From Chrysophaeum taylorii (lineage: Eukaryota; Sar; Pelagophyceae; Pelagomonadales; Pelagomonadaceae): a stretch of 64,000 bases of DNA. Below are positions 3,380 to 64,000 of this stretch, one piece after another. The DNA lies in NCBI GenBank assembly GCA_029834535.1, contig JAQMWT010000297.1, positions 124,001-188,000 on the forward strand, given 5' to 3'. Each line of letters begins with the position of its first letter. The stretch's first letter is position 1. The translations under genes were made by a program, and so were the position numbers. Below the pieces are notes generated by a model that had not been told where the DNA came from, made no database searches, and was given only the letters and a program-made list of their open reading frames with translations.

Positions 3380-4715
3380 AACGAGCACCTGGTGCCATGT
3401 GAGAACTGAAATGGAGATGTGAGAACTATAATGGGGACGTGGTGCAGGGGTAACTGTCATAGCTTCCTCACAGGTCGAGTTGATTTGTTGTCGCCAGAAA
3501 TTACGGTTTTGAGCGAGGGAGTACCAGGTCGTCGGGGGTATATTGAAGTCGCGGAGTGCCTTGTTGAGAGCACGGCCGTACATGAAATGTGCGAACCCGC
3601 GGGGACGTTCAGAGGCGCACCAGGAGTTGAGCATTTTCCGAGGGAGGCGATGACAGGGCATGCGGGCAACTTTGGCCTGCCCAGCGAAGTTGTCGGCGCG
3701 AGATGTAGATGTCGATAGTCTCCAGGCCGAGGAGCCCGAGGGGTTGAATTTTTGATATGATGTTGCCAGGTCTGGCGACGTGTAACGCGGCACATCGCAC
3801 GCGCGCGTTCTGCGTGAAAGCACCGTGGACGATAGTAAACAACCTCGGTTCGGCATCATGATTCCGCACCGTGAAGGAGGATGGCGAGGATAAGACCGAC
3901 GTAGACAGCTCGTTTTTGGCGCGGGCAGAGACGTATTTTGAGGGAATAAAAACGTAGTGACAGAGCGCGCCGAAAGCCGCTGCCGGCTTCTTTAGGCGAG
4001 AGTCAACGTCCTCAGAGTCACTGCAGTTGCGTGAGAGTATAGAGCCCAAGTATTTGAATATCGCCACCACGGGGAGATATGACGGCCGTCACCTATGTCT
4101 AAGTCGGAGAGGTCGGCACTATCGTAGGTTGTCGGGTCATTGTAGATAATGCATGGCTTGGCGACAAACAGTATCTCGGATTTCGACTCTTTTCCTACTT
4201 GGCGGTCACCCGTCTAGACTTCCATACACCATCTGGCAAAATGCCGGATGAGACGGGGCGTCGCCTCATTTACAGCTCGACGATCGGGAAACGGGAACGC
4301 CACATCATCTGCGCACACTGACTCTTCGAGTACGACTTCCTCGGCGCCGCGTTTTGCGTTGTAGCGACGTCCAATAAGTACATCATCGTGCTTCGTCTTG
4401 AAAACGTACGCTGGTTCCCGACCTTCACGACGTCGCCATGAAATGGTCAAGGCCGCGTTGTATAGAACGAAAAGAACCGGACCTAGGACACCACCCGGCT
4501 TAAACGCCGATGATGGAGCCGATCACGGCGGTAGCGCCGGAGACGGAGAATCTCACTTGTATACGGTGGAGAGCTAATAATGATGCGTTAGAGTTTCGCT
4601 GGAACGCCGAATTTCGATAGCACTTGCCAGAGTAGTTCCCGCGGGACCCTGTCGAAAGCCCTGGCGAAATCAATGAATAGTACCCATGTTTCCATGCCTT
4701 CTTGGTATTTTGCCG
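3380..4715 (-). pseudogene. LINE reverse transcriptase fragment, frameshifted
   Basis: Minus-strand translation gives consecutive RT pieces of a non-LTR retrotransposon. TWVLFIDFARAFDRVPRELLW (palm, catalytic FIDFARAFD) lies near 4640-4700. The segment ending CADDVAFPFPDR, with CADD replacing the usual YADD, lies near 4290-4320. The thumb sequence FKYLGSILSR is near 4050, and LETIDIYISRRQLRWAG plus RLPRKML near 3630-3730. The pieces fall in different frames, so the gene is broken. The order and spacing match LINE ORF2 proteins common in algal and other protist genomes (known from memory). The endonuclease half is not attached on this strand; an endonuclease fragment on the plus strand starts near 5067. 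Confidence 0.8.
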
Positions 4716-5066
4716 AAGAAAGGTGACCTTTCGCTACCAGGTACCTATCTCGTCGTGATGAAGCTCGAGGTCGCGCGAGAGATTGTCTCCAACATCATAC
4801 GCGCGCGTGTCGGTGTCATCTCAGCTGAGATCGAACACGAGTCGAAGTGCCCTGAACGGGGACTGCCGACGCAACCTTCAGCCTGAAGATGGATTGAAGA
4901 AGCGTCGTGAGCACGACGCGGTTCGAAGAAGAGTTTCGTCATTAGAACATGTGTGCCGACACTGCGCGGGCCTTTGTGTGACAGCGGACCTCTTAAGTGA
5001 GATTTCTGACATAGTAGTATTTTACCGTAGTCTCGGCTTGAATGATTATGAAGGAATGAATGAATG
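4716..5066 (+). other. Possible LINE 3' end with (GAAT)n tail
   Basis: No gene is recognised. A plus-strand reading contains VCRHCAGLC, a weak zinc-finger-like pair of cysteines, and then LGLNDYEGMNE. The stretch ends in GAATGATTATGAAGGAATGAATGAATGA, a short tetranucleotide run like the simple-repeat tails of LINEs. It sits between a minus-strand LINE RT relic and a plus-strand LINE endonuclease relic, which favours a LINE 3' terminus, but this is inference. Confidence 0.3.
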
Positions 5067-5599
5067 ATGCGGCGGCGTATTCATGCGGGGGGCATGTACT
5101 AGGAAACTTGGCTCCCGGGAAATCAATCGCGTTGGTGGAAGCGGGCGGACTCACATTGTGGTTTGCTCATGGCTTCCTGCTGAAGACAAAAGCTACCGAG
5201 GCCATGGCCTTGGCTCTCAGCTCTTCGGCGGCGAGGGCATGGCGAGACATCGGCGTAGAAATGATTCGGGCCTCGGCTCGCTTCATGGCGTTGCGACATG
5301 TTTCGAAAGATGCGAAAGGTCACGATGGCGGGCTCGTCCTCGTCAGTGCCTATGCACCGGTCGGTAATGCCTCTACTGGGGCGTGGGCCTCTTTCTACGA
5401 TGATTCGGATACCGCGCTACAACTGCAACGGGCGTCACGAGACTCTTATTGTGGGGCTGGATGGGAACGCCAGCATTGGCATTCGGGCTGGTTTGGATGA
5501 GAGACATGTATGTGGTCCACATGGGGTCCGGCACGTGAACGACGCGGGTCGCCGGATGTACACCTTTCTCGCTACGAGGGAACTGGCAACCGCAGGCAC

Positions 5600-5748
5600 T
5601 AACTAACTAACGAACTAACGAACTTCAGACCTCTCCCGAGCATGGGAGCCAGGCCGGACCGACAGGGGCCAGTCCGGAATCACGGGTCTGTAGACGAGGG
5701 GCGCCGAAAGGTGGGTCGGCGGAGAATGATCATCAGGCTTGTCGCCAT
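5600..5748 (-). mobile_element. SINE-like element, 5'-truncated copy, with 8-bp target duplication
   Basis: The sequence begins (plus strand) with CTAA-type repeats and then matches the tail-proximal 140 bp of the elements at 11.0, 11.5 and 57.0 kb. It is flanked by GCAGGCAC at 5592-5599 and 5749-5756. Truncation at the end away from the simple-repeat tail, together with a target duplication, is what target-primed reverse transcription produces. It interrupts the LINE endonuclease relic. Confidence 0.8.
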
Positions 5749-6068
5749 GCAGGCACCTTCTTCGGAAACCCAACTATGGGACATGCGCACATCCTCGTTC
5801 TTGTTTGCGCCACCAACTCGACCATGTCGTCGTGGACCATCAAAAGTTGGGTCGTTTTTGGATTTAGGCGTCACTGAGAGCATCTAAGACTCTGATCACC
5901 GAGCGCTCAAGTGCATCGTCCGATTTCAGATGCGACTCGCACGACCTCACAACAGCCAACAACCCCACTTTCCCGCCTAGATTACTCTCAGCTGAAAACT
6001 CCCGTTGGTACAGCCAGCTTTTGTACGCCGTCCATGATAACCACCGCACCTTGGCAACGACACCGTCG

Positions 6069-6155
6069 GATTTCCCGGATGCAGGCTCTGTGTACTCCAA
6101 GTGGGAGACGGTCTGATTTCCCGGATGCAGGCTCTGTGTACTCCAAGTTGGAGAC
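6069..6155. repeat. 46-bp tandem duplication
   Basis: GATTTCCCGGATGCAGGCTC...GGAGAC occurs twice head to tail with a few differences, inside the LINE linker relic. Confidence 0.9.
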
Positions 6156-6599
6156 TGCGGCGAGCGCAACGGCTTCTGCCACGCTCAACCGCACCGACGC
6201 AACGAACCGGCACCTGCAGCTAAGATTCTTCTTTCAACCCTAGTTCAAGCGCGCAACTTGGCTTTCGCAGCGTTCGCGGCAGCACCCTCAAACGAAGTGC
6301 GTCGCTTGCTCCTCATTGCGAGGTGCTCGTCGTGCTGTTTCCACGTCCGTGGTACAGGCAAAGAAACGATGGATTTATTTGCTCGATGTGTGGCGGCTTG
6401 AATGCCGGCTGTGAGTCGCTTGGTCGCACGTCGCGAGAGATTATCGGCCGTCTTAAACAAGAGCGGCCTGTCCAAGGATCGGTCGTCACGTCAGACGCTC
6501 ATGCAAAAGCCGGATGGTGCGCGCTCTTCAACACCTCAGGAGAATGGAAGTGTTCCGAGCACACTTTGCGAAACCATACAACCGCCAACCTTGTTTTGA

Positions 6600-7817
6600 C
6601 GCAGGAGTCATTGGTTGAGTGGATCAAGTTCGTCATAGAAATATGGTCCCGGTGCACGTGACGGTGCGGCGGCGTCATTTCCGCGAGGAGCACCAGGGGC
6701 GTGAGTAATTTAAGAACTGAAAGGATGCTATCAAGTAGAGATCGTCGAGAAGACTTGGCAATTCAGAAGTCTTGGTATGTTTGATGATGTTACGGTTCGT
6801 ACATGGAGGTGTGATCTCAACGACGACATCGCAGTAAAATTCTGGCCGTTCGGCATCCGAAATGGAGTGCAGATGGTAAATAAAGGACAGTAAGGACTGA
6901 AAGATTATTGTATTCGGGAAACGTCGACGTAGCATTCTTATTGCAAGAGTGTCATCCGACTTAACAGCAACTTAAACATTGATGGTCAAGACCAAGTCAT
7001 TAGGGGATTGTGAGAGGAATGCAGGGGTCGACAGACCAGAACATAACAACATGACAGAGGTTTTACGGGAATGTTTTACGGGAATGTGTCCATTCTCGAC
7101 AGAAAAGAATACTGGTCGAGAATTTTGGTCACGCGGGTGGAGTTGAGTTCTAACGAACAAACTCAGTGTTCTGACGCATATTAAGTAGGAGAGGGCGAAG
7201 CGAAGGACGTTCCGGTAGTTTCCGCATCAGATAAGATGGTGAGAGAGACTCCCTCTATTCTCATGGTAGCGTTTCAGCGGAAATGCTAGGGATCTGAGTT
7301 CCATATTTCTGTCGCGAGGAAGAGTGTAGGGGATACAAGGCTAGGCTGGTAAATCATGATCGCGTGATAGTCAAGTTGGCTTTGTTCCATTCAGGTACCG
7401 ACAGGGTAAAAAGATGACGGCCTTTAAGCGGCTGCAGAAAAAGGGCGTAGTCGAGTTTCACATAACCAATCTCAGGATGAGATGGAAGGAGTGAAACATT
7501 TACTCGATTTAGCATCATGTGCGAGACCTGTTGTTGACCTTTGGCAGTTTGGACAACCGGCGCGTTGCGCTTGTCGACGGGGACAATATGCGTGAGACAC
7601 GCATAGTCGAACGCAGCGAAATAGAGGCACAGCTGTCTAAATAGACCAGCTGAAAGTGAGGAGGCAGATTGTGCTCCCTCATATACTTAGAGAGCAAGGC
7701 GTTTTCGGAATTGGCGCTGGTAGGGAAAATGCTAGCTGCAAATTAGTTTGGTTGATCTAATAGTTTAGGAGCCACAATGGTACGTGTGAATTTTAAGGGA
7801 ATGACTGGTGCTGTTGG
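6600..7817 (-). pseudogene. Copia family A relative: protease-region fragment
   Basis: Minus-strand translations align with the protease-to-integrase part of the large copia element further right. LLCSGLSTPAFL (7030-7080) matches LLCSGMSTPAFL at about 14.95 kb. The segment SDAERPEFYCDVV...TPPCTNRNII (6790-6870) matches SDAERARYYTDIV...TSPCTNRNII. YLDSCAS (about 7600-7625) corresponds to the aspartic protease motif YADTCAS. Gag and integrase are absent. The left boundary against LINE sequence is near 6600, and at the right it is cut by LTR A. Several frameshifts make it non-functional. Confidence 0.7.
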
Positions 7818-8218
7818 TGGAGCGATTTGACCTTCTCCGGGTACATGGTAGAGACGGCGTGCAGTCTTAGGCGTGTACAGACCATTCCGCTTGTCACATG
7901 CTACTACACAAGGTAGGGATTTAGGCCCTAGCTCCTTAAGGACATTAGGTCCCATAGAAGCGTTCACACTGACAATGAGGAATGAAGCCTCCATTAATTA
8001 AACAGACAACCCCATACCTGACGGTACGCACCTGGAGGTCTACTCCTTGTTGGAAGTGAACTGCAGATCTAATTCTTCATAATCTGAGATATAATGGCGG
8101 AAGGGTAAGGAAGGAAAGAGGGAAAGCCGTCTTACGGAGAGAAAACCCTCTTGTGGAGATAGGTGTGAAAGGAGTGAGAAGTTCCAGTGTCGTACACATA
8201 ATAGTGTAGCTCTCTGGA
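7818..8218 (-). repeat. LTR A (3' LTR, copia family A, subfamily 1)
   Basis: A 401-bp sequence present three more times in the window (18260-18661, 24544-24945, 59588-59990). In sense it starts TCCAGAGAGC and ends CTCTCCA, not the usual TG...CA. In sense it is preceded by a purine tract GAGGGGG (plus-strand CCCCCTC, 8219-8225), which marks it as a 3' LTR. Internal differences (TCTACTCCTTGTTGGAAGTG) group it with the solo LTR at 59.6 kb, not with LTR B. Confidence 0.9.
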
Positions 8219-8225
8219 CCCCCTC
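8219..8225 (-). promoter_or_regulatory. Polypurine tract of copia family A
   Basis: GAGGGGG on the minus strand directly abuts the start of LTR A, as at 24537-24543 before LTR C. This is the expected position of the plus-strand primer of an LTR retrotransposon. Confidence 0.65.
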
Positions 8226-8352
8226 GACGTGTGAAAGAATGGTGTATGCATTTCAGACTTTCTTGAGGGCGGAACTTGGGTAATGTACATAGGAGCAGCG
8301 AACAAGTGAACAAACAACAACAAGACATGGGAAGTTAATATGACAGATTAAT

Positions 8353-10341
8353 TTATGAGGTCGGGCGTGTCGTGATATTGCGTAAAGAAGCGGTGTCCAC
8401 AACATCAGATGTGTGGTCCAACTCATCCTCGCTATTATCTTCCAGTTCCTTTAACTCTGGAGAGGAAGAATTGTGGTCTTCGGCGGATTGGTCGTTAGCA
8501 TTATTGTTTGTAGTGATAGCATCACTTAAGGTGACCAGGGGTGCCATAACAGACGAGAGGAAGGACATAGCTGCATCCGGTGTTAAAGTATGCAGGTCCA
8601 ATGCCGGGATAACATTATCCTGTGCATCAGACATAGCGGCATGTAAGTGATGAGCTGCATCGTCGATTAGAGCTTGCTGAGACTCATCATATGTGTTTGG
8701 AGGAAACTGTCCAATAGACGAAATGAGCGATCGTGAAATTATGTGGACAAAGACAGCTAAGGTTGGTATTACATTATCTTGATGCATCTGGAGACTTGAC
8801 AGTATGTTATCTAAAAGCGCGACATGTTTAATATTCTCGGTTACTTGAGCGTGTAAATTGTCGTAAGCTTCTTGTACCTGGGTTACGTTCTTTAGCGCAA
8901 CCGATAGCTGTTGATCTTTCGCCATCAATTACTGTTCACTGTTCGTGAGACGTGAGGACAAAGATTGAATCTCTCCTTTTAACTGGCGTAAAGAGTCAAC
9001 CACATTGTCATTAGATATATCTGGCGTGGACTCGGCGAATGGAGTTTCGACTGGTGCTGGTGTTACACCTTCAGATAATGTATTATCTGAAAAGGCATCA
9101 ATTACAGCAGAGGGAGGGATAGCCAACCTGGACTAGCACGTTTTTAAAAGACGATTGGTGCTCAGGTGAAAGTTGACGAAAGTAATTAAGCATTGGCGGT
9201 ACCGTCTCGGAAGAAGTCGCGTTAAGTTGGTGAGATACATCATTAACGAAGCGTTCAATGAGCACATTAAGTAGCTCATCAGGATTGGTCACTACACATG
9301 TTTTATCCTCAACTGACTGTAGTAATGACCAAGCCGCTACAAGAATCTCAAGATTGACATTCGAGATATAAGGCAGCTGTAACAAGAGAGGAGCATTGTC
9401 CTCAGGGTTAATGATGATTTTAGAAGCATCAACGTTATGACTCGCCATACAACTCATGAGCGCCTCTTTGAGCAGCTTGTTAATAGCAATGGACTTTCCA
9501 AGGCGGAGAATGATAGCTCTCATGTGTGCAGCTGGATCATTATAACATGAAAGATGAAAAGATTGTCGATTATTGCGAATTAACGCTGACCCATGTTGTG
9601 ATAGGTTGCACATGACACAAATCAACAGAAAGAAGGGACGCGGTACGTCAAAACAATGCGAGGCATTGTTTTGTTGAGATGATCTTCGATGATTTTAGTT
9701 ATTTTGTCCGCTTTAAGCTCATCTTCAGTGCATAAAACGAGTACAAGGGGTGTACCCGGCGTATTGGTTTATTATAGCACCTGGCACACGCCACATGTAC
9801 TTTGACAACCCCTTTAATGGGTGGGTATCGATGAAAGCGAATACCTTCATTGGGCGGTATATTAGGGGCGTTCCGGATGCGCTTTGCCTTTACACATAGC
9901 AATGAACTCAAGAACTGGATATTGTCCACACAATTTGTTTGTTGTGCTTCCGTAAGCAGCTGTTGAATGGACTGATGCCAACATTGAGAATCTTTAGGTG
10001 GTGGTAGTAGAAACTTTGGTGCCTGGGTGCCAAGTGAAAGGACATTTCCCTGACATCATCGCCATTGCATCGAATTTACAGTGCTTGAGCAGGAAGTACT
10101 CGGACTTTGCTGCTTGCGGTTTAGTTTGTTGTTGGACAGTTGACTTAGGAGTCACGGGCGTGGACTGATTTCCTTGAGCAACCGAAAGGTATGTCTGATG
10201 TCTCCGATTAGGAGAACTGGTTGGAGCAACGCCTGGATTTAAAGCATTGAAAGGGGGGGATAATGATGACACGCCACCGCGGCCACGGTTCAGTACAGAA
10301 TAACATCGGCTCGCAGCATCCTCGTTCTTGGTGGGGTTCAT
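8353..10341 (-). pseudogene. Extra ORF (ORF3) downstream of pol, copia family A, broken copy
   Basis: Three minus-strand open segments (10341-9994, 9625-9098, 8928-8353) align in order with the single long ORF at 22465-24561, so they are one gene broken by stops and shifts. The N-terminal part is rich in Ser/Pro/Gln (SPNRRHQTYLSVAQG). The middle holds conserved Cys pairs (CARCYNK, CVMCNLS) and SCYNDPAAHMRAIILRLGKS. The C-terminal part has heptad-like, coiled-coil-prone sequence (MAKDQQLSVALKNVTQVQEA), then an acidic tail before a hydrophobic stretch in another frame (about 8270-8330). No enzymatic domain is recognised. It lies between RNase H and the 3' LTR, where env-like genes sit in some copia lineages (sireviruses). 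Confidence 0.7.
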
Positions 10342-40302: not shown

Positions 40303-40320
40303 CGAAGCACCATCGAAGAT

Positions 40321-40426
40321 TCCGAATCCGGGACTCGAACCCGAGTCTCTCGGGTTCAACGGCGTGCAGGATTCGAACTCTGCAGTCTTGAAAGCCGAGT
40401 ATGATAACCGCCTACACCAATTCGGA
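40321..40426 (-). tRNA. tRNA-Glu(UUC) with a 34-nt intron containing a T-arm-like hairpin
   Basis: The exons are identical to the neighbouring copy except in the D-arm, where this copy pairs correctly (GTG/CAT). Exons are 40426-40389 and 40354-40321, and the intron 40388-40355 is at position 37/38. The intron sequence is unrelated to that of the other copy and contains GCAGAGTTCGAATCCTGC, a perfect B-box core (GTTCGAATCC) closed by a short stem. The two genes are in the same orientation, 18 bp apart. Confidence 0.85.
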
Positions 40427-47345: not shown

Positions 47346-47995
47346 AGACAAACATCTGTCGATTAGTAGTAAGGACTGCTATGAAGACGGAGGGGGGGGC
47401 GTGTGCGTGCTTGAAGGTTTTTAAAGGTCGACGTCCTGCAGAGAGGGGGGGTGCTGCGTGTGTGGGTTTCTCGACCTGCGTTCGATAATGAAGCCTAGTT
47501 CCTAGTTTAAACCCGTCGCTCGTGCGTTCCGACTTCACGCAGTCAGCACAGCACGGTTCTACGGATACCAGCGGAGCTGAAATCACAATATACCTCGACC
47601 TGTCTCCCTCATTTCCACCGAGCGCACGGAACACTGCGAACCGAGGAACTCACCGGATAGTTGATGCGTAAATCCTATGAGTTCCTCGGTCCCCGTCTTT
47701 TTTGAGACCAGCGTAGGGGTAGGTCCGCCCTGGCGCTTACGCACACGCATTCTTGAGGGTGGCGGAAAGCTTGATGAGGGAATAAGGCAAGAATTACTAC
47801 ATTCAAGGAAATGCAACCAAGACACGCTGAGAACCACAACAGCTGGGAGTCTTGGGCAGATGAGCCTCGGGGAGCAGGACCTCCGTAAACGGAACCAACG
47901 AAACGAGCTCAAGGGCTCCGGCTATTGTATATACCGAAAAAGTAGAAGTTCACTATTACCTGAGCAAAAGAAAAAGTGCACGTTACGAACACACT
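47346..47995. other. No gene seen
   Basis: Short ORFs only, none with a recognisable product. The left edge continues the ACAAACAG tract of R1; the right edge leads into the tRNA-Gly pair. Confidence 0.4.
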
Positions 47996-48065
47996 CTCAG
48001 AAACGGGAATCGAACCCGTGGCAAGCCGATGGCAACGGCTTATGTTGCCACTACACCATTCTGAG
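47996..48065 (-). tRNA. tRNA-Gly(GCC), copy 1
   Basis: Minus strand, 70 nt. The acceptor CTCAGAA pairs with TTCTGAG (7 bp). The anticodon arm AAGCCG-TTGCCAT-CGGCTT has anticodon GCC. The T-arm loop GGGTTCGATTCCC matches the B-box. No intron and no encoded CCA. Confidence 0.92.
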
Positions 48066-48107
48066 GTTAAAGGTTGCAACTTCCTACATTCTCTTCAATT
48101 CATAGCT

Positions 48108-48177
48108 CTCAGAAACGGGAATCGAACCCGTGGCAAGCCGATGGCAACGGCTTATGTTACCACTACACCATTCTGAG
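48108..48177 (-). tRNA. tRNA-Gly(GCC), copy 2
   Basis: Differs from copy 1 by one base in the D-loop region (plus-strand GTTACCAC versus GTTGCCAC). Same orientation, 42 bp apart, so a recent tandem duplication. Confidence 0.92.
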
Positions 48178-54549: not shown

Positions 54550-55790
54550 TCAACGTACTCAACTCAATTATGACATTTGGCATGCTCGTCTGGTCATTAT
54601 AGCCCTCCCTATATTCGGCGTTTGTCTTCTCTCGCTGTTGGTGCACCGCTTTTCCCAAGCTCCGCGTCTCTTTCTTTTTGTCCTGCTTGTGCTTTAGGTA
54701 AAATGCATGCTGCGCATGTTGGCCAACGTAAACCACATGCATCCACTTCCACCTCTCTTCCTGCCACCGAAATCTTGTCCCGTCCACGTGCCGTTGCCCC
54801 CTATCTTATTATCCACGCAGACCTCATGTTTACCGGTGTTCCTTCTTTCATTTACCAAGACCGTGCCATCCTTACGTTTGTTGATGATCATACGCGTCGC
54901 CGCACACGTTACTTTGCCCCCCGCCACGATGCACTTAAGAAGCCAACTCGAACTTTATCTGTCTACTGTGGTTCGCCCCTTTGGGTATCGCATAGCCCTC
55001 ATCTACACAGATCGTGACAAATCTCTTATGGGCCAATTCGAAACCTTATGTCTGGGCAACAACATCGCCATCAAACGGGCTCCTGCTGCTCAGTCTAAAA
55101 CTTCCCAGGCGCACGCTTTTTCTGGTGTTGTGGAACGCTCCCATCGCGCAACTGCTGATATTACTCGCACTCTTTTGGTGCATGCGCACCGTCCACCTGA
55201 TTTTTGGCGTTGGGCCATGGAAACGGCTGACTTCATCTCCGAGCGCATGCCAAACGCCTCCAACCCTGGTTACATGCCGCCATATGAAATGCTTCACGAA
55301 ACCTTGCCCCGCGTCGATTTTCTTCGTGTTTGGGGCTGCCCTGCTGCTATTCTTACTGGCGACAAATGGCCTACCAAAGCTATTACAGGCATCTTCATTG
55401 GGTATCCGTCTGCAGGACCGGGTTACCGCATTCTGCTTCAACGATCCACCGGTCCCGTCATCCATACTTCTGTTGATGTCGTTTTCGACGAGAATTTTGC
55501 TATGCGTAAGTCCCTGTCCTCCCAACCCCTTCCTCCTCCTCTTGTGGATTCTCGTTTCCCCGACTTATTTTATTATGACCCTCGTTTGTCTTCCGCTGTT
55601 GCTCCTGTGTCTCCTGTTTTTGATGCTCGGGAGCCGGCCTTATCGGGACTGATCACCCCAGAAACAATACCACAACCGTCAGCGGACAATACGAAAAGTG
55701 CACCATTACGTCGAGCCAAACGGAGCCGACCGCGCAAAGTCGACCAAAGCGCACCAACAACAACTCACAAACCTTCGAACTTCCATTCTC
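54550..55790 (+). pseudogene. Copia family B integrase
   Basis: IWHARL / GHYSPPYIRRLSSLAVGAPL and FCPACALGKMHAAHVG provide the HHCC zinc region (CPAC). IIHADLMFTGVP carries the first catalytic Asp, IALIYTDRDKSLMGQFETLC the second and SGVVERSHRATADITRTLLV the Glu. VWGCPAAILTGDKWPTKAIT then GIFIGYPS is the usual C-terminal segment. At least two frame changes (near 54600 and 54930) are needed to read it through. Confidence 0.85.
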
Positions 55791-56026
55791 GCGTTTGTCC
55801 ACAACGCAATGTCGATTCTGTTTCCTCCTGTCACTCTCTGTATGTCACTTATTCTAGCTTTCGTTTGTTAGTTCATTATGTCTTCCTTCCCCTTTGTCTA
55901 GCTCATACCCTTGTTGATCCCCCATCTGTCCACGTTCTAATGATTACTCTGCTTCCGATGAAACCTCTCAATATTCTTATATTGATGACGGCGCTATCAC
56001 TTCTACTCATTTACGCGAAGCTTTAG

Positions 56027-57001
56027 CTCAAACAAATCCTAAACGTCCTGGCTGGTTCCAAGCCATCGCCAAAGAATATCATTCCCTCGGTCAGCTCGGT
56101 TGCTGGGATGTTGTTCGCGTTCCTTCTACTTTTTCTGGCAACATCTGCACTTTAAAGTGGGTCCCCCGCAAGAAGTGTGAATCTGGCCGCTTCAAATCGT
56201 ACAAGGCTCGCCTCGTTGTCCGTGGTTACACCCAGGTTCACGGCATTGATTATCACGATACGTATTCTCCAGTTGCCAACATTGTCACCATACGGCTCTT
56301 TCTCACCTTTGTTGCTGTTCACGACTGGGATTTGCATTCGTTGGATGTCAGCTCCGCTTTTATCCAAGCTCCCATTGACGAAGACATCTATGTCTGGCCA
56401 CCCGAAGGCTATGCTCCTCGCCAACCCACAGATGGTTCCAAACTCGTTTACAACCTCCGTCGTTCTTGGTATGGTTGCAAACAAGCTTGTCGTAATTGGT
56501 GGCTTTCTTTGGAACGCTTCCTTGTCAATGATTGCGGCTTCGTCCGCGGATCTGGTGACACTTGCAGTTACAAGCTCGTGCTTAATTCTCTCGTCGTTCT
56601 CCGTCTCGTTCTTGTCGTTGATGATCTTCTTGTGGCGCAACCTCGTCATTGCCTTGGCCATAACCAAGCCTTCTTCCTCCGTTTCAAAGCCTTCACTGAT
56701 GTCAACGAGCTCGATCTTCACACTTACTTTGGTCTCCGCATTACGCGTGATCGCGCACGTCGCACGCTCGCTATCGACCAATCGCATGCTATCCGTGAAA
56801 TCCTCACCGAACATCGCTTCATCAACAGTAAACCAGAATTGACTCCCGCTCCCAAAGGTCTTCATCTTTCTGCGGCTGATTGTCCTGTACCTGGCTCCCC
56901 CGATCACGTCTTCATGGCACGCATCCCTTTTCGTCGTATTGTTGGATGTGTTTTGTTTATTTCTGTTATGACTCGCCCTGATATCACTTGGTCCGTCAAT
57001 C
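56027..57001 (+). pseudogene. Copia family B reverse transcriptase
   Basis: LGCWDVVRVPSTFSGNICTL, KARLVVRGYTQVHGIDYHDT, LDVSSAFIQAPIDEDIYVWP, LRRSWYGCKQACRNWW and LVLVVDDLLVAQ (catalytic Asp pair) appear in order. ILTEHRF and PFRRIVGCVLFISVMTRPDI belong to the thumb. The frame is cut at WSVN by the SINE and resumes SVNQCARFTHNPGKPHWYAL at 57375. Confidence 0.9.
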
Positions 57002-57374
57002 TAACTAACTAACTAACTTCAGACCTCTCCCGAGCATGGGAGCCAGGCCGGACCGACAGGTGCCAGTCCGGAATCACGGGCCTGTAGACGAGGAGCGCCG
57101 AAAGGTCGGTCGGCGGAGAGTGACCATCAAGCTTGTCGCCATGCGACGAGGAGTCCGCGATGTGACTGACAACCAACTCGTCGATAACCTTCCGTCTTCG
57201 CCCCCCGGCCATACCCCGTCCCACTGCGAACGTTCCGGCTGCCAACCGGCCCGCCCGGGAGGCGAATAGGTGCCAACCTACGCCGGGAGGGCGGATGCCC
57301 TCGCAAGGCTCAGGATTCATGAGGCACCGTCCTCCATCGCAACCGCAGTCGGCGATCAGGGTAAGGGTAGAAGT
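57002..57374 (-). mobile_element. SINE-like element copy 3 with 11-bp target duplication
   Basis: 373 bp in reverse orientation, beginning (plus strand) (CTAA)n then TTCAGACCTCTCCCGAGCAT. It is flanked by GTCCGTCAATC at 56991-57001 and 57375-57385. Removing it restores the copia RT reading frame exactly at the duplicated residues SVN. Confidence 0.95.
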
Positions 57375-57966
57375 GTCCGTCAATCAGTGTGCGCGTTTTA
57401 CACACAATCCTGGTAAACCCCACTGGTACGCTTTATCTCATACCCTCCGTTATCTCAATGGTTCTCAAGATCTTGCCCTTGTTCTTGGTCTCGATTCTAC
57501 CCTTCGTCTCTGTGGTTATTCCGACTCCACCTGGGCCGACGACCCTGATGACCGCCACTCCACTACTGGCTTTTGTTTTCTCCCTTGCTGGCTCTATGAT
57601 AGCCTACTGCTCACGTTCGCTGTACCTCCTCGCCCGCTCCTCTTTTGAAGCTAAATTGCTCGCTCTTTACGCCGCTACTGCTGAGCTCTCTTGGCTTCTC
57701 AAACTTTTTGATGACTTTGATCTCCCTCGTCACACGGTACCAATGTACGTCGATAACAGCACCACCGTCACCCAAGTCCGTCTCCAATGTCTCACGAGGC
57801 GCACCCGCCATATTGACATTCGCTTTTACAGCACCGCCGAATATCATCGCAATCGCATCATCGATCTCCAACACATTCCCCGCCTTGACAACCCTAGCGA
57901 TATCTTCACTCGCAATACGGAAGCTACTCCATTCCTCCGGCTTCGTGCTCGTTACCTCACCTCGTG
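57375..57966 (+). pseudogene. Copia family B RT end and RNase H
   Basis: NPGKPHWYALSHTLRYLNGS, CGYSDSTWADDPDDRHSTTG then FCFL, ARSSFEAKLLALYAATAELS, MYVDNSTTV, RRTRHIDIRFYSTAEYHRNR and HIPRLDNPSDIFTR are the RNase H motifs in order. One frameshift lies near 57590. The element ends near the stop at 57964-57966. Confidence 0.9.
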
Positions 57967-58769: not shown

Positions 58770-60620
58770 TCTTTACTTCGACGACTTGGGGAGTCCCTAC
58801 AGTTGCACCTTCTCAAGTTCGAACAGCGATGCCTATGAAGTGATAGCCTATGCTGCGCGCACGATGAAGGTCGAGCCTGGGCGCATTTACTGCGTGCCAG
58901 TCGCTCTTTCAGAGCCCATGGAAACCGGGCATGTTTTCGTTGCTACGTCTTCTGGATACGAGCAACTTGGGGTAGTCGATGGAATGTGTTCTTCTCCTGA
59001 GGATCATGACAGGTTCGCAGCTCGAGTGGCGATATCCTCTACCCAGGATGTGCCGACCGTGATCACTCAAGGTGAAGTCCTTGCTTTGGGCGATATTGTT
59101 CGTTTTGATGACGAGCTGAATGCTGAGACGGTCGACGATTTAACGAAGGATGGTGAAGCCGAATCTAACAAGGCTAACCTATCATTCAGTGTTTCGGTCG
59201 CAAGCCATCTTACTCAAGGCAATGTGGCTCCCGTACTGATGCTTTTGAGCTCAGTGCAGAAGGCGTCTCCTTCTGCCGATAAGAAGAAGAATTCTCGTCA
59301 AGAATCGCTCGGTAACGACGATTTCGACCGACGAACTGACGAGGAGGAAAAGAAATGCCGAGAAGTTACAGAATGCGAGATTCGCCGAAGGTTTGAAAAT
59401 GTCCACTGGGTGCCGATCACGTATCGCAAGGTTGTGATGCTCTTCAGCGGCGCCGGAGGAAGTACTTTAGGATTGCAACGAGCGAACGAGTTGTGCGGGA
59501 TGTCGTTTCGAGTCGTCCTTGCTCTTGACTCGTCAACAGCTGCCAACAAGGTTCATCAGAAGAATTTCCCGAAGATACCTGTGGTTCTCCAGAGCGCTAC
59601 ACTATTACGTGTACGACACTGGAACACCTCACTCCTTTCACACCTATCTCCACTCGAGGGTTTTCTCTTCGCAATACGGCTTTCCCTCTTTCCTCCCTTA
59701 CCCTTCCGCCACTATTACTCTCAGATTATGAAGAATTAAATCTGCAGTTCACTTCCAACAAGGAGTAGACCTCCAGGTGCGTACCGTCAGGTGTGGGGTT
59801 GTCTGTTTAATTAATGGAGGCTTCATTCCTCATTGTCAGTGTGAACGCTTCTATGGGACCTAATGTCCTTAAGGAGTTAGGGCCTAAATCCCTACCTTGT
59901 GTAGTAGCATGTGACAAGCGGAATGGTCTGTACACGCCTTAGACTGCACGCAGTCCCTACCATGTACCCGGAGAGGGTCAAATCTCTCCAGATTCAGCAC
60001 ACGCTCTGCGGACGATATGACTCGACCCTCCGATTGATCAAGGCTTATTTGCCTGAAGCGGAATGGTCATCGTCAATTTGCATGGCGTCTCCACCCTGCG
60101 TTCATTCAGCACTCTGCAACTCGACATCCAGAGATGCTGGCAGGGGAGTTACGGCCACTAATTGGACGATGAAGCTGTGCAAAATGGCTGGCTTCATGAT
60201 GTGGCTGATTGAACAGGAGGCGTCCATTATTTTTTATATAGCGCGCTTACACCCTTACGTGTACGTCGTCAATTTTCATGATATCACGCACTCTGATGAG
60301 CTCTCGCGTGCGATTGCTGGTTTCCAGTCACCCACTGCACTTGCAAGAGGCTCCGAAGACATGTGCGAATATGCAACAATAATTTGCTGCAGCTTTAGGT
60401 TACGCTCATGAACGCCACCTGCTCCAGCTGAATCATCTCGGCTCGTTCCGAGAAGCAACATATACGGCTTACACCGCTACGCGAGTTCCTCTTCGTTTGG
60501 GACCGCATCGCTCGGACACTCGGCCTTTGACTCTCGAGATGACGGCCGAGTTGCTCACGATGCCGCTGGACCATGATTGGGCTAGCTTGTATAAGACAGA
60601 TTCGTTCAAACATTTAGCGT
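58770..60620 (+). pseudogene. Gypsy Pol spacer plus cytosine-C5 DNA methyltransferase, interrupted by an LTR
   Basis: The first part (CVPVALSEPMETGHVFVA ... DVPTVITQGEVLALGDIV) looks like the segment after the protease of gypsy Pol. Then KVVMLFSGAGGSTLGLQRAN is motif I (FxGxGG) of C5 methyltransferases and RVVLALDSSTAANKVHQKNF is motif II (acidic residue, then NxP). With LTR D and one copy of its 5-bp duplication removed, the frame reads directly from FPKIPVV to QHTLCGRY and on to SSSICMASPPCVHSALC, motif IV with the catalytic Cys of PPC. In a shifted frame RPLTLEMTAELLTMPLDHDW (about 60520-60580) fits motif IX (R-x-L-T-x-x-E-x-A). Motifs VI and X are not clear. The domain would bind S-adenosylmethionine and methylate cytosine. 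It is now inactive (LTR, frameshift near 60410). Confidence 0.75.
59588..59990 (+). repeat. LTR D, solo LTR of copia family A (subfamily 1)
   Basis: 403 bp, closest to LTR A. No internal copia sequence adjoins, so it is a solo LTR. Flanks GGTTC (left) and GATTC (right) are a 5-bp duplication with one mismatch. It is inserted inside the methyltransferase reading frame between motifs II and IV. Confidence 0.9.
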
Positions 60621-60959
60621 CGCGCGGCGCATCCTTCCATGGCACATCGAACTTTTCTTCGTATTTGAACCTCACCTCAGGGTGGCTCTTATTGATCTTT
60701 TCACCTTTGACGCGCACATTCGGCTCGCTCCTTACTTTCGGCTCCTGTTCATGTTCAGGATCCGGCGGAACGTCCACTTTTGATTGTGGGGGGGGGGCAG
60801 CAGAAAGAGCGTGAGCCGTCCCCGCGCATCTGTTTGAAGCGGAAGCATAGGCACTTCTGGCGGCTCCCATTTAGTGGGATCCTGGAGATCATCTTTTGAC
60901 ACCCACTTAACGACACGAGTGCGCGTATTTGACAGTGGAATCTGTACGTGATGAAGGGT

Positions 60960-62774
60960 GGTGTCGGAAATTCGCAAATACTGCTCAAAGGATCGATCTG
61001 TCGGGCTCAACGCGGTCGGCATGACTTCGCCACTTTGGCGGACACCTCTGGTCACGGAGTTGTGCAGATCGACTGCTAAAATCGCAAGAGTGTCTGGGGG
61101 GACGACAGACGCGGACGGTGTACCGTTACCGCAGACTCCGGAGCACGTCAAGGACAATGAGGCGATGAAAGTCGTAACTCTGACGAAGGAAGAAGTCGAA
61201 AAGGTTGTTCGAGAACTGGGAATTCCCGACAACCTGGATGAGGATGCGAAGATGATGTTGAGCCACTGCGTGCAATACGCGTGGGCCTTTTTTGATCCGA
61301 TTATGAGACCCGTGGACTCGCCACCGGTTTCTCTACGATTAAAGACGCAAACCCACGACCGATCAAGATGACGCCTTATATGTTGACGCCAGCAAAGCTC
61401 GAGTGTCTCATAAAGCAGATCACTGAGTGGTGTCGCGATGGAGTCATCCGACCGGCGAACTCTCCGTGGGGATTCCCTGTACTGATGCTGCCTAAGAAGG
61501 GAGCAGAGGCCGGGACGTCGAATGCTTTTCGAGCTGCAGTTGACTTGCGTCAGCTCAATGATCAGCTGGTCAATGACAGTTGGCCGAATATTCGTCAGGA
61601 TGATGCTTTGGCTTTTCTTGCCACGCGCCGTTGGCGGACGTGCATTGATATTCGATGGGGTTATCATAACCTACGTTTGGACGCCGCCGCTCAGGACGCT
61701 GTTACGATGGTCAGTCCACTTGGAGCCCATAGTTTCTTGCGATTGCCTCTAGGAGTAAAAACAGCACGAGCTCTCTTTTGTAAGCAGATGGCTAGCGATT
61801 TGTCCACATGGATGTATAAGGACTTGGTCGCGTTTGTCGACGATATTATGATGGTATCGGATGAACTCCACCGACATTTACAAGTCTTGATTGAAGTGCT
61901 GTGCCATTTAGCGCAGCGAGGATATAGTGAACGAACTTCGAAGTTCAACCTCCTCAAAGACGAAATCGAGTTTTTGGGACACATTTCGACTCCGGAAGGC
62001 TCGAAGCCGAATCCCAAGACGTTAGAAGCGTTGCAGAAGGTGCCGATTCCCAGTACGTTGCCGAACACGTCCCCGAAGACCCAGATTCGATGTTTCATCG
62101 GCATGAGCAACTATTGCCGCCGATATGTGAAGATTTATTCGAAGATTGTGGAGCCGCTGAGGCGATTGTGTCTTGGAGACGTTAAGTTTGAGTGGACGCC
62201 TGAGTGCCAAAAGGCATGGGACACGATCATCGAAGCTTTGGTGGACTCTCGCGGAGTTTATCATCCTGACTACGATCTTCCTTTTCAGATCCGCTCGGAT
62301 GCTTCCAAGGATGGTCTGGGCGCGTATCTTTTTCAGCTCGTGGATGTCAATGACGAAACCGGCAAGGTGACACGAGAGGAACGAGTAATTGAGTATTGGA
62401 GCCGAGGTGTGCCGAAAGAGATGCGGAACTATGAGCCTCGCCGGCTAGAGCTACTGGCGGTTGTTCTTTCTCTTGAGCATTTCCGCTCGTATATCGAAGG
62501 TCACAGGACGATCCTTGAAACGGATCATCGCAACTTGACGTTTGTACGAAAGGCGAAGCACTCGTCTGGGCAGTTGGCTCGATGGGCGATGCGGCTCGCC
62601 GATTTTGATCCTGAGTTGGGTTACAAACCAGGAAAGTCGCCGGGAATGAGTATCCCCTGTCTCTCTCGCAATCCTATAGATCATGTCATCGAGACGGTTG
62701 AGTTTGGTGAGCCCTTGAACCACGCATATATATATGTATCTAGTGTGCCAAAAACTTCCTCGCCCTGTCGATGA
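60960..62774 (+). CDS. Gypsy reverse transcriptase and RNase H
   Basis: The upstream ORF (60958-61371) gives the RT leader (TLTKEEVEKVVRELGIPDNL, WAFFDP). The main ORF (61368-62774, 468 codons) begins MTPYMLTPAKLECLIKQITE. RT motifs: GVIRPANSPWGFPVLMLPKK, AAVDLRQLND, WRTCIDIRWGYHNLRL (first catalytic Asp), FLRLPLGVKTARALF, DLVAFVDDIMM (catalytic Asp pair) and EIEFLGHISTPEG. IRCFIGMSNYCRRYVKIYSK is the connection. RNase H shows FQIRSDASKDGLGAYLFQ, YEPRRLELLAVVLSLEHFRS and ILETDHRNL. The two ORFs overlap by 4 bp in different frames, so a frameshift lies near 61365. All catalytic residues are present. Confidence 0.9.
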
Positions 62775-64000
62775 TGAAGGAGTACCTTTAGCTGGGTGCC
62801 ACGTCATTCTGTCGTTTGTTACGACTGAGTTACCTGTGGAGGAAGAAGACGAGGATCTCGATGATCCGATGCAATTGGTCACGTCTCATGCTACGAGACA
62901 ACGTCAGAAGCAACGTCTGCAGACCCAACCTAGTATTTTCCGTGATGCCGATGAATACCAAGAGTACATCGACAAGATCCCGGATAATACTTTGGAAGAG
63001 ATAGCCAAAGAGCAGATCACTGATGCTACTTGCGAGGACATTCGCTATCGCATGGCTCAGGGCCATTCTCTTCGTCGGTACGGAGCCAACTATCGCTATC
63101 AAGTGGTGAAAGGAGTTCTCTACCGTGCCGCACCTGACTTGCACCCGATGATAGTCGCACCCCGAACTTTACGGACGATCATCATCCGATTGTACCATGA
63201 CACGCCTCTCAATCGTGGTCACATGGGTCGTCAAAGTACAGTGCAATCGATACTTGAACGTTTTTGGTGGCCCCACATGTCTAATGAGGTGGGTGCTTAT
63301 ATTGCTGGTTGCATAGTGTGCAAGAAAGCTCGCACGCCTGAACCAAAGAGAGCAGGTCTTCTTCAGCAACCAGTAAATGATGGTGATTGCGCCCTCCTTT
63401 GTATGGATTTGTTAGGACTTTTGCCCAGTGCTGGTCCCGATACATATCTGATCATATTATTTGATCCATTTTCTCATTTCTTGATTCTTGACGTACTACA
63501 CCATAAGACTGCTGAATCAATCCTCGAGTCTTTTGTCGCGAATATATTACTCAAGGGTTATCTACCTCAGAGGATTCGTACCGACAATGGGAAAGAGTTC
63601 GTCAAAAAATTGATGGAAGAGTTTTGTCATCTCTTCAATGTTCGGTATAGTACCACGATTCCGTATCATGCTCAGGCTAATCCTGCGGAAGGGTCAGCCG
63701 CTTTATCAAGGCTTTCCTCCGTGCGTGTCTTCAAAACCGCAAGATCGCGGACTGGCCCGAATTCGCGGAGTACATTGCTTTTTGCTACAATCGTAAGTTT
63801 ATTCCGGGAACTCAGATCTCACCTTTCATGCTTCGTCTCAACCGGCAGCCTCTATTGCCAACAGATTATACGATCATGGATCTTGATGTCCGCCGCCTGC
63901 CGAAAACTCGCTCCGATGTTGAGGCAGAGACTCGCGAGAGGTGGAAATTCTATACCGCTACGGTGAACGAAGCTCGCGAGAAGGCTCTTCGTAAACCACG
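62734..64000 (+). pseudogene. Gypsy integrase, one frameshift, truncated by the window
   Basis: The zinc region is LYHDTPLNRGHMGRQSTVQS then IAGCIVCKKAR (HHCC). The catalytic Asps are in LLCMDLLGLLP and RIRTDNGKEF, and the Glu in QANPAE. Right after NPAE the frame shifts by one missing base near 63690; the next frame continues RVSRFIKAFLRACLQNRKIA then DWPEFAEYIAFCYNRKFIPG and SPFMLRLNRQPLLP to the end. It is otherwise well preserved, so the inactivation may be recent or a sequence error. Confidence 0.85.

Follow-up and report, generated by a model that had tools for sequence, protein, structure and literature searches.

A putative, divergent C5-methyltransferase domain in Pol of an abundant Ty3/gypsy retrotransposon family in Chrysophaeum taylorii

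Within the genome of Chrysophaeum taylorii, an abundant family of Ty3/gypsy LTR retrotransposons carries a methyltransferase (MTase) domain as a fixed part of Pol, between a post-protease spacer and the reverse transcriptase (RT), and this domain almost certainly belongs to the family of cytosine-C5 methyltransferases (C5-MTases). The original prediction had placed a C5-MTase at this position in Pol, and other copies of the element, profile–profile comparison and signs of purifying selection all agree with it. The window, that is, the whole 64,000-nucleotide stretch of DNA that was analysed, contains a dead copy of the family. Taken as a whole, it is probable that this copy is the remnant of an element whose divergent C5-MTase would be made with Pol and packaged, and might be used to methylate the element's own DNA.

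The features of the window copy are collected in Table 1. The order RT, RNase H and integrase that is typical of Ty3/gypsy Pol was identified by Pfam in the open reading frames of the window (RT and RNase H at 61296-62771, integrase at 62719-63963) and in an intact copy, L041. Upstream of these domains lie motif I (VVMLFSGAGGSTLGL, 59431-59475), a motif II-like acidic residue followed by NFP (ALDSS...NFP, downstream of motif I), a PPC motif IV with its cysteine codon at 60097-60099 (within ASPPC), and a motif IX-like RPLTLEMTAELLTMP at 60521-60565, all where they had been predicted. When the L041 polyprotein was used as a tblastn query, the first match in the window corresponded to amino acids 1196-1457 (63% identity; 58801-59586, covering the spacer and MTase motifs I-II), and the gag and protease part of the query had no match in the window. 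The copy is truncated at its 5' end, and directly upstream of the spacer stands a tandem repeat of 17 bp. The MTase frame is broken by a frameshift near 60294, and the tblastn match for motifs VIII-IX spans 60233-60622. An end of the domain at 60620, as first proposed, was not upheld, as motif X is found in the inverted segment that follows, near 61112-61080 on the minus strand. The insert that interrupts the domain has 42 listed matches in the genome, itself and its twin contig included (40 scored of 701 candidates), with identities of 82-100% and mostly covering query positions 2-404/405; inspected by eye, its termini (59587-59991) are not clearly LTR-like in character.

Table 1. Layout of the broken Ty3/gypsy copy in the window.
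Feature	Position	Strand	Basis
Post-protease spacer of gypsy Pol	58801..59430	+	tblastn against L041 polyprotein
C5-MTase motifs I and II (VVMLFSGAGGSTLGL ... ALDSS ... NFP)	59431..59586	+	PF00145, window ORF, below cut-off
Repeat of about 405 bp inside MTase domain, outside element proper	59587..59991		genome matches with near-constant bounds
C5-MTase motif IV (ASPPC) and motif VI position (EQE; ENV usual)	59992..60294	+	tblastn, L041 aa 1457-1557, 83%
MTase motif VIII region and motif IX	60295..60622	+	tblastn, L041 aa 1538-1667, 63%
Inverted segment: MTase motif X and MTase-RT linker	60613..61112	-	tblastn, L041 aa 1666-1763 and 1763-1832, 65-73%
Linker end, reverse transcriptase and RNase H of gypsy Pol	61108..62753	+	Pfam RVT_1 4.8e-13, RT_RNaseH 1.2e-26; L041 identity 80-90%
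Integrase (H2C2 zinc-binding and rve core), continuing beyond window end	62731..63995	+	Pfam Integrase_H2C2 5.1e-16, rve 7e-11; L041 identity 74-80%

Other repeats and genes were noted elsewhere in the window. Directly upstream of the gypsy copy is a separate broken copia element (54698-57964; SH3_retrovirus, RVT_2), in which no MTase match was found by tblastn with the pol of a copia element described below (L025) or by Pfam searches of three of its frames. The copia pol gene contains an insert of about 373 bp (57002-57374), flanked by 11-base direct repeats that were recognized by eye (56991-57001 and 57375-57385). The copies of this insert listed in the genome (42 matches, 40 scored of 1748 candidates) mostly share 98-100% identity along about 355 bases, and it appears to be a young SINE-like insertion. 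Two adjacent tRNA-Gly (GCC) genes are located on the minus strand at 47995-48177, and a 107-base tRNA match, given by Rfam only, at 40320-40426 on the same strand is perhaps intron-bearing.

Searches of the genome with different parts of the element gave match counts that are lower bounds: at least 142 for the spacer with motifs I-II (141 scored of 888 candidates), at least 150 for the motif IV region (937 candidates) and at least 131 for the whole MTase of L041 (1009 candidates). Among the 131 scored matches to the whole MTase, 96 cover at least residues 6 to 292 free of stops, 18 more span this length with a stop, and 17 are partial. Several features occur at matching places on contigs C10 and C297, identical or nearly so, and these are perhaps haplotypes or a duplicated contig; because the two carry near-identical stretches, gypsy copies may in part be counted twice.

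The L041 copy has a single open frame of about 3,067 amino acids (3,026, plus 41 further upstream), in which the MTase precedes RT, RNase H and integrase (Pfam RVT_1, RNase H, H2C2 and rve). Its LTRs of 336 bp (TG...CA) are 100% identical, and the insertion is therefore recent. No target-site duplication was found at L041, the one copy examined for it, and the flanks differ. In L041, L037 and L035, inspection by eye showed a retropepsin-like region with DGMAD ahead of the spacer; Pfam gave no protease match in L041. The placement of the MTase next to RT is shared widely: 60 of the 87 scored RT copies (87 of 1344 candidates) have a listed MTase match on their own strand just upstream of RT. The median distance is about 625 bases, some distances being estimated from the list of motif IV matches. 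For five of the other 27 RT copies the upstream stretch was looked at, and MTase sequence was present in all five, in some of them partial or beside a rearranged spacer. Copies with the MTase ahead of RT exist elsewhere in the genome, and the refuting case, in which the domain would be missing from all other copies of the family, is not what was observed. There are at least two subfamilies, between which the MTases are 82% identical and in frame at the same position in Pol.

The identity of the domain was analysed with sequence profiles, using the motif numbering of C5-MTases and the residues that are usual at each motif. The Pfam C5-MTase profile, PF00145, has a curated cut-off of 22 bits. 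A match above this threshold had been anticipated; it was obtained for the isolated MTase domains of two other copies, L041 and L037 (26.4 and 27.4 bits, profile positions 2-52), and not for the MTase piece of the window, which scored 18.7 bits (window ORF, profile positions 2-46, pieces searched apart). The whole L041 polyprotein scored 18.9 bits. Comparison by hhalign with 68 C5-MTases (60 bacterial or archaeal, 7 phage and 1 DNMT2-like) gave an E-value of 1.1e-11 over motifs I-IV, ending at PPC, and placed SPPC, which is invariant in all seven aligned domains, on motif IV. When the first 62, 95, 125, 150 or 200 columns were removed, and with them motifs I-IV, the best match ran from column 230 to 272 or 286 and corresponded, in register, to the IX-X block of the profile (positions 302-343 or 302-357). 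The score of this block exceeded those of 30 out of 30 column shuffles at all five cut points, narrowly at one of them (25.2 compared with 24.6), with single-comparison P values of 0.003-0.01. Against a smaller set of eight references, the alignment without its first 62 columns matched best in motif IV alone. Motif VIII was assigned by eye (LMSCRVRLL). On this evidence, the domain bears the signature of a C5-MTase in motifs I-IV and, less strongly, in motifs IX-X.

Selection on the domain was gauged from sequence divergence between copies. Over 289 codons, comparison of L041 with five copies of the other subfamily gave dN of 0.114-0.117 and dS of 2.1-2.4 for the MTase, with dN/dS of 0.048-0.055; these ratios are rough because dS is saturated, and the contrast with the two other frames of the same region (0.64 and 0.60, L041 compared with L037) is still clear. 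For the same pair of copies dN/dS is 0.082 in the protease (PR) region and 0.142 in the spacer. Identity is highest in the MTase (82%), lower in the PR region (72%) and lowest in the spacer (63%). The MTase is thus under strong purifying selection. It is the combination of open frames in many copies with this selection (dN/dS of about 0.05) that identifies the MTase as a fixed domain of Pol and not a chance insertion.

Whether the domain is catalytically active is uncertain, because isolated domains have no Pfam match past motif IV and because all seven aligned domains have EQE in place of ENV at motif VI (the Glu being kept) and AS in place of the usual GN at motif X. These substitutions, the failure of Pfam to recognize the C-terminal half and a methylation footprint that is not clear (see below) would suit a domain that has kept the C5-MTase fold and binding of SAM or DNA, has lost methyl transfer, and now has a structural or targeting role within Pol. 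However, the SPPC cysteine and the FSGAGG loop are both invariant in the seven domains, and dN/dS of the MTase is below that of the PR region; we consider the loss of methyl transfer rather unlikely.

The origin of the gypsy MTase was sought in protein, viral and structural collections. In a set of 5.8 billion proteins, the MTase part of the polyprotein had no homologue at an E-value of 0.001 among 1,234 candidates, comprising only proteins of 0.55-1.75 times the polyprotein length, and the alignment of the MTase domain had none at 0.01 among the 7,998 scored candidates, those with the most shared words. The MTase and RT of the element matched nothing in IMG/VR, a set that possibly holds no records near this genome, and a phage search with the MTase gave six weak matches with E-values from 0.03 to 9. 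In a tree of 28 rows, with no DNMT3 reference among them, the stem of the gypsy MTase measures 3.86 changes per column and that of the MTase of a copia family in the same genome about 3.6; both stems are very long, and the tree places neither enzyme. In this tree the gypsy MTase falls with neither of the two cellular MTase genes found in the genome; approximately unbiased (AU) tests do not reject such groupings, with p-AU of 0.40 for the host DNMT2-like protein and 0.28 for DNMT5, or a grouping with the copia MTase (0.107). The motifs that we take to be characteristic of DNMT3 are not seen in the gypsy MTase. By these searches and this tree it is an orphan, and its branch is long.

The best solved-structure matches of the gypsy MTase are DNMT2 proteins, at E-values of 0.067 and 0.073 that are not significant. 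Together with the grouping with the host DNMT2-like protein that the AU test leaves standing, these matches could be read as a sign that the enzyme methylates RNA in the manner of DNMT2, the tRNA primer or the genomic RNA being its target. Such a role is improbable, as the E-values of the DNMT2 structures are near chance, a DNMT5 grouping is likewise not rejected, and the residues that follow SPPC are, by eye, unlike those of the host DNMT2-like protein. A chance landing of host MTase sequence in one gypsy copy, to which the window copy, taken alone as broken and under the Pfam cut-off, might point, is rejected as vanishingly unlikely, because the domain is in frame at the same place in many copies of at least two subfamilies and under purifying selection, and the tree (if not the AU test) separates it from both cellular genes.

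The gypsy family is not the only retroelement in this genome that is associated with a C5-MTase. A search of the genome with PF00145 listed at least 57 matches (123 scored of 474), and the first 20 loci were examined. Two of these 20 are cellular genes, which we read as DNMT2-like (L009, contig C634) and as DNMT5-like with SNF2-like sequence (L010, contig C621), the latter having its best named match in Tribonema minus (57%); this match and a form ID-like rbcL suggest that the host is an ochrophyte alga. The remaining 18 loci (L011-L028) share one MTase, with identities of 64-100% and stops within the match in four of them. As an example, L025 (C96:59400-69300; 3697-9552) has a frame of 1,952 amino acids in which PF00145 comes first (32.1 bits), followed by rve (17.2 bits, below the cut-off) and RVT_2 (133 bits), and it is a copia element with a C5-MTase ahead of integrase and RT. 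The MTase of L025 has canonical residues (TLPCQ, ENV), and a protease region was recognized by eye before the copia MTase. In tblastn with the copia RT of the window, an RT match was found downstream on the strand of the MTase at 10 of the 18 loci (L025 included), on the other strand only at three, and at none of the remaining five within the stretch examined. By hhalign, the copia MTase matches C5-MTases at an E-value of 2.2e-13 and shows nothing to the gypsy MTase. Close kinship of the two is rejected, with an hhalign probability of 2.7%, while a single origin is not rejected by the AU test given above (p 0.107). DNMT5 is a maintenance type of enzyme. Since the other examined loci (20 out of 57) comprise only one DNMT2-like and one DNMT5-like gene, retroelements may supply the de novo cytosine methylation of the cell; this, along with the recruitment by two unrelated superfamilies, Ty3/gypsy and Ty1/copia, of different C5-MTases into the same slot in Pol, right after the protease region, is a scenario that we put forward as possible but doubtful.

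Retrotransposons with C5-MTases have been described in a small number of lineages. A gypsy lineage in Klebsormidium, named in the original prediction, is confirmed by the KnitGypsy-Dnmt3 element of Klebsormidium nitens, an LTR Gypsy element with an MTase of the DNMT3 clade (de Mendoza et al. 2018, PMC5890265). A copia lineage in Symbiodinium was named there in error: the same paper reports LINE and DIRS elements with DNMTs in Symbiodinium, and Copia without a DNMT. KnitGypsy-Dnmt3 and the present family are alike in being intronless LTR Gypsy elements that occur in several copies and have a C5-MTase within the Pol frame, with Ka/Ks under 0.2 (about 0.05 here, with dS saturated). KnitGypsy-Dnmt3 differs in that its MTase belongs to the DNMT3 clade, whereas that of C. 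taylorii is an orphan with LFSGAGG and SPPC; its repeats are called DIRS-like, whereas the one copy examined here, L041, has a plain LTR pair; and its host is a charophyte, whereas the rbcL of the present genome appears to be of the red lineage (form ID). Symbiodinium also has C5-MTase retrotransposons of high copy number, SymbioDIRS-Dnmt3 and SymbioLINE-Dnmt, and the SymbioLINE MTases are orphans too, but these elements are of the DIRS and LINE classes and not LTR elements with a DDE integrase (PMC5890265). A methyltransferase within a retrotransposon polyprotein is likewise known from DIRS elements in which it is a Dam-like N6-adenine MTase (cited in PMC5890265 and PMC6338049); this enzyme acts on adenine and is structurally unrelated, and the elements use a tyrosine recombinase.

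Other reports bear on how new the gypsy case is. In stramenopiles and several algae, Ty3/Gypsy and DIRS retrotransposons that encode DAM and DCM enzymes are said to occur, with adenine and cytosine enzymes not separated by host, in a passage that cites other work (PMC6338049). These would cover the present element if gypsy elements with a C5-MTase are among them; the passage gives no sequences to compare, and the mention of such Ty3/Gypsy elements in stramenopiles lowers the novelty of our case. A further paper puts DNMT3 in ‘LTR Copia and DIRS’ (PMC12344493), citing the 2018 study, the text of which has Gypsy. A Sola1 DNA transposon of Ectocarpus is reported to carry an N4/N6 MTase (PMC12477816). 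The titles and beginnings of abstracts that were listed, from a literature collection with few subscription papers or preprints, showed no further case of an LTR retrotransposon with a C5-MTase. The association of gypsy with a DNMT is already known from KnitGypsy-Dnmt3, while the MTase of the present family is an orphan; what surprises is that one genome has both this family and a copia family with a C5-MTase.

A mechanism can be proposed in which the MTase would be produced as part of Pol and packaged together with RT and integrase, and would then methylate the cDNA of the element or, following integration, its site. The most likely gain would be a new copy that is pre-marked and so less toxic or less visible to the host. 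Pol products are packaged. This property and the result of a yeast assay form the basis of the proposal: SymbioDIRS-Dnmt3, a retrotransposon DNMT, is capable of de novo CG methylation in yeast, according to the 2018 paper (PMC5890265). In the same paper, KnitGypsy-Dnmt3, the only gypsy DNMT tested, had no activity in yeast, which its authors regard as inconclusive. That the MTase of C. taylorii acts on the element's own DNA is a plausible reading to which we hold tentatively.

A footprint of such methylation was sought in the differences between copies. Among gypsy copies (45 pairs, not independent), C/T differences per site are 0.039 at CpG, 0.040 at CpT, 0.032 at CpC and 0.021 at CpA, and among copia copies (34 pairs, again not independent) they are 0.113, 0.135, 0.089 and 0.066, respectively. 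For gypsy loci the ratio of observed to expected CpG lies at 1.11-1.28, the window copy having the lowest value and the recent L041 the highest. Decay of CpG as a mark of methylation was not borne out, as the C/T rate at CpG is not above that at CpT and CpG is not depleted. Methylation is either rare, or outside CG, or has left little mutation here.

It is a question of wider interest why selfish elements carry an enzyme of the type by which they are usually silenced, and few lineages in which they do so have been described. The present family adds a gypsy lineage whose orphan enzyme is strongly selected, and the same genome has a copia family with a different one; together they give this the look of convergent recruitment rather than of a freak event. 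The presence of different MTases in two unrelated kinds of element hints that such enzymes are picked up repeatedly. The genome of C. taylorii, at 70.8 Mb, has many copies with open frames, of which one or more are very recent, and would allow self-methylation to be tested directly by sequencing of the methylome.
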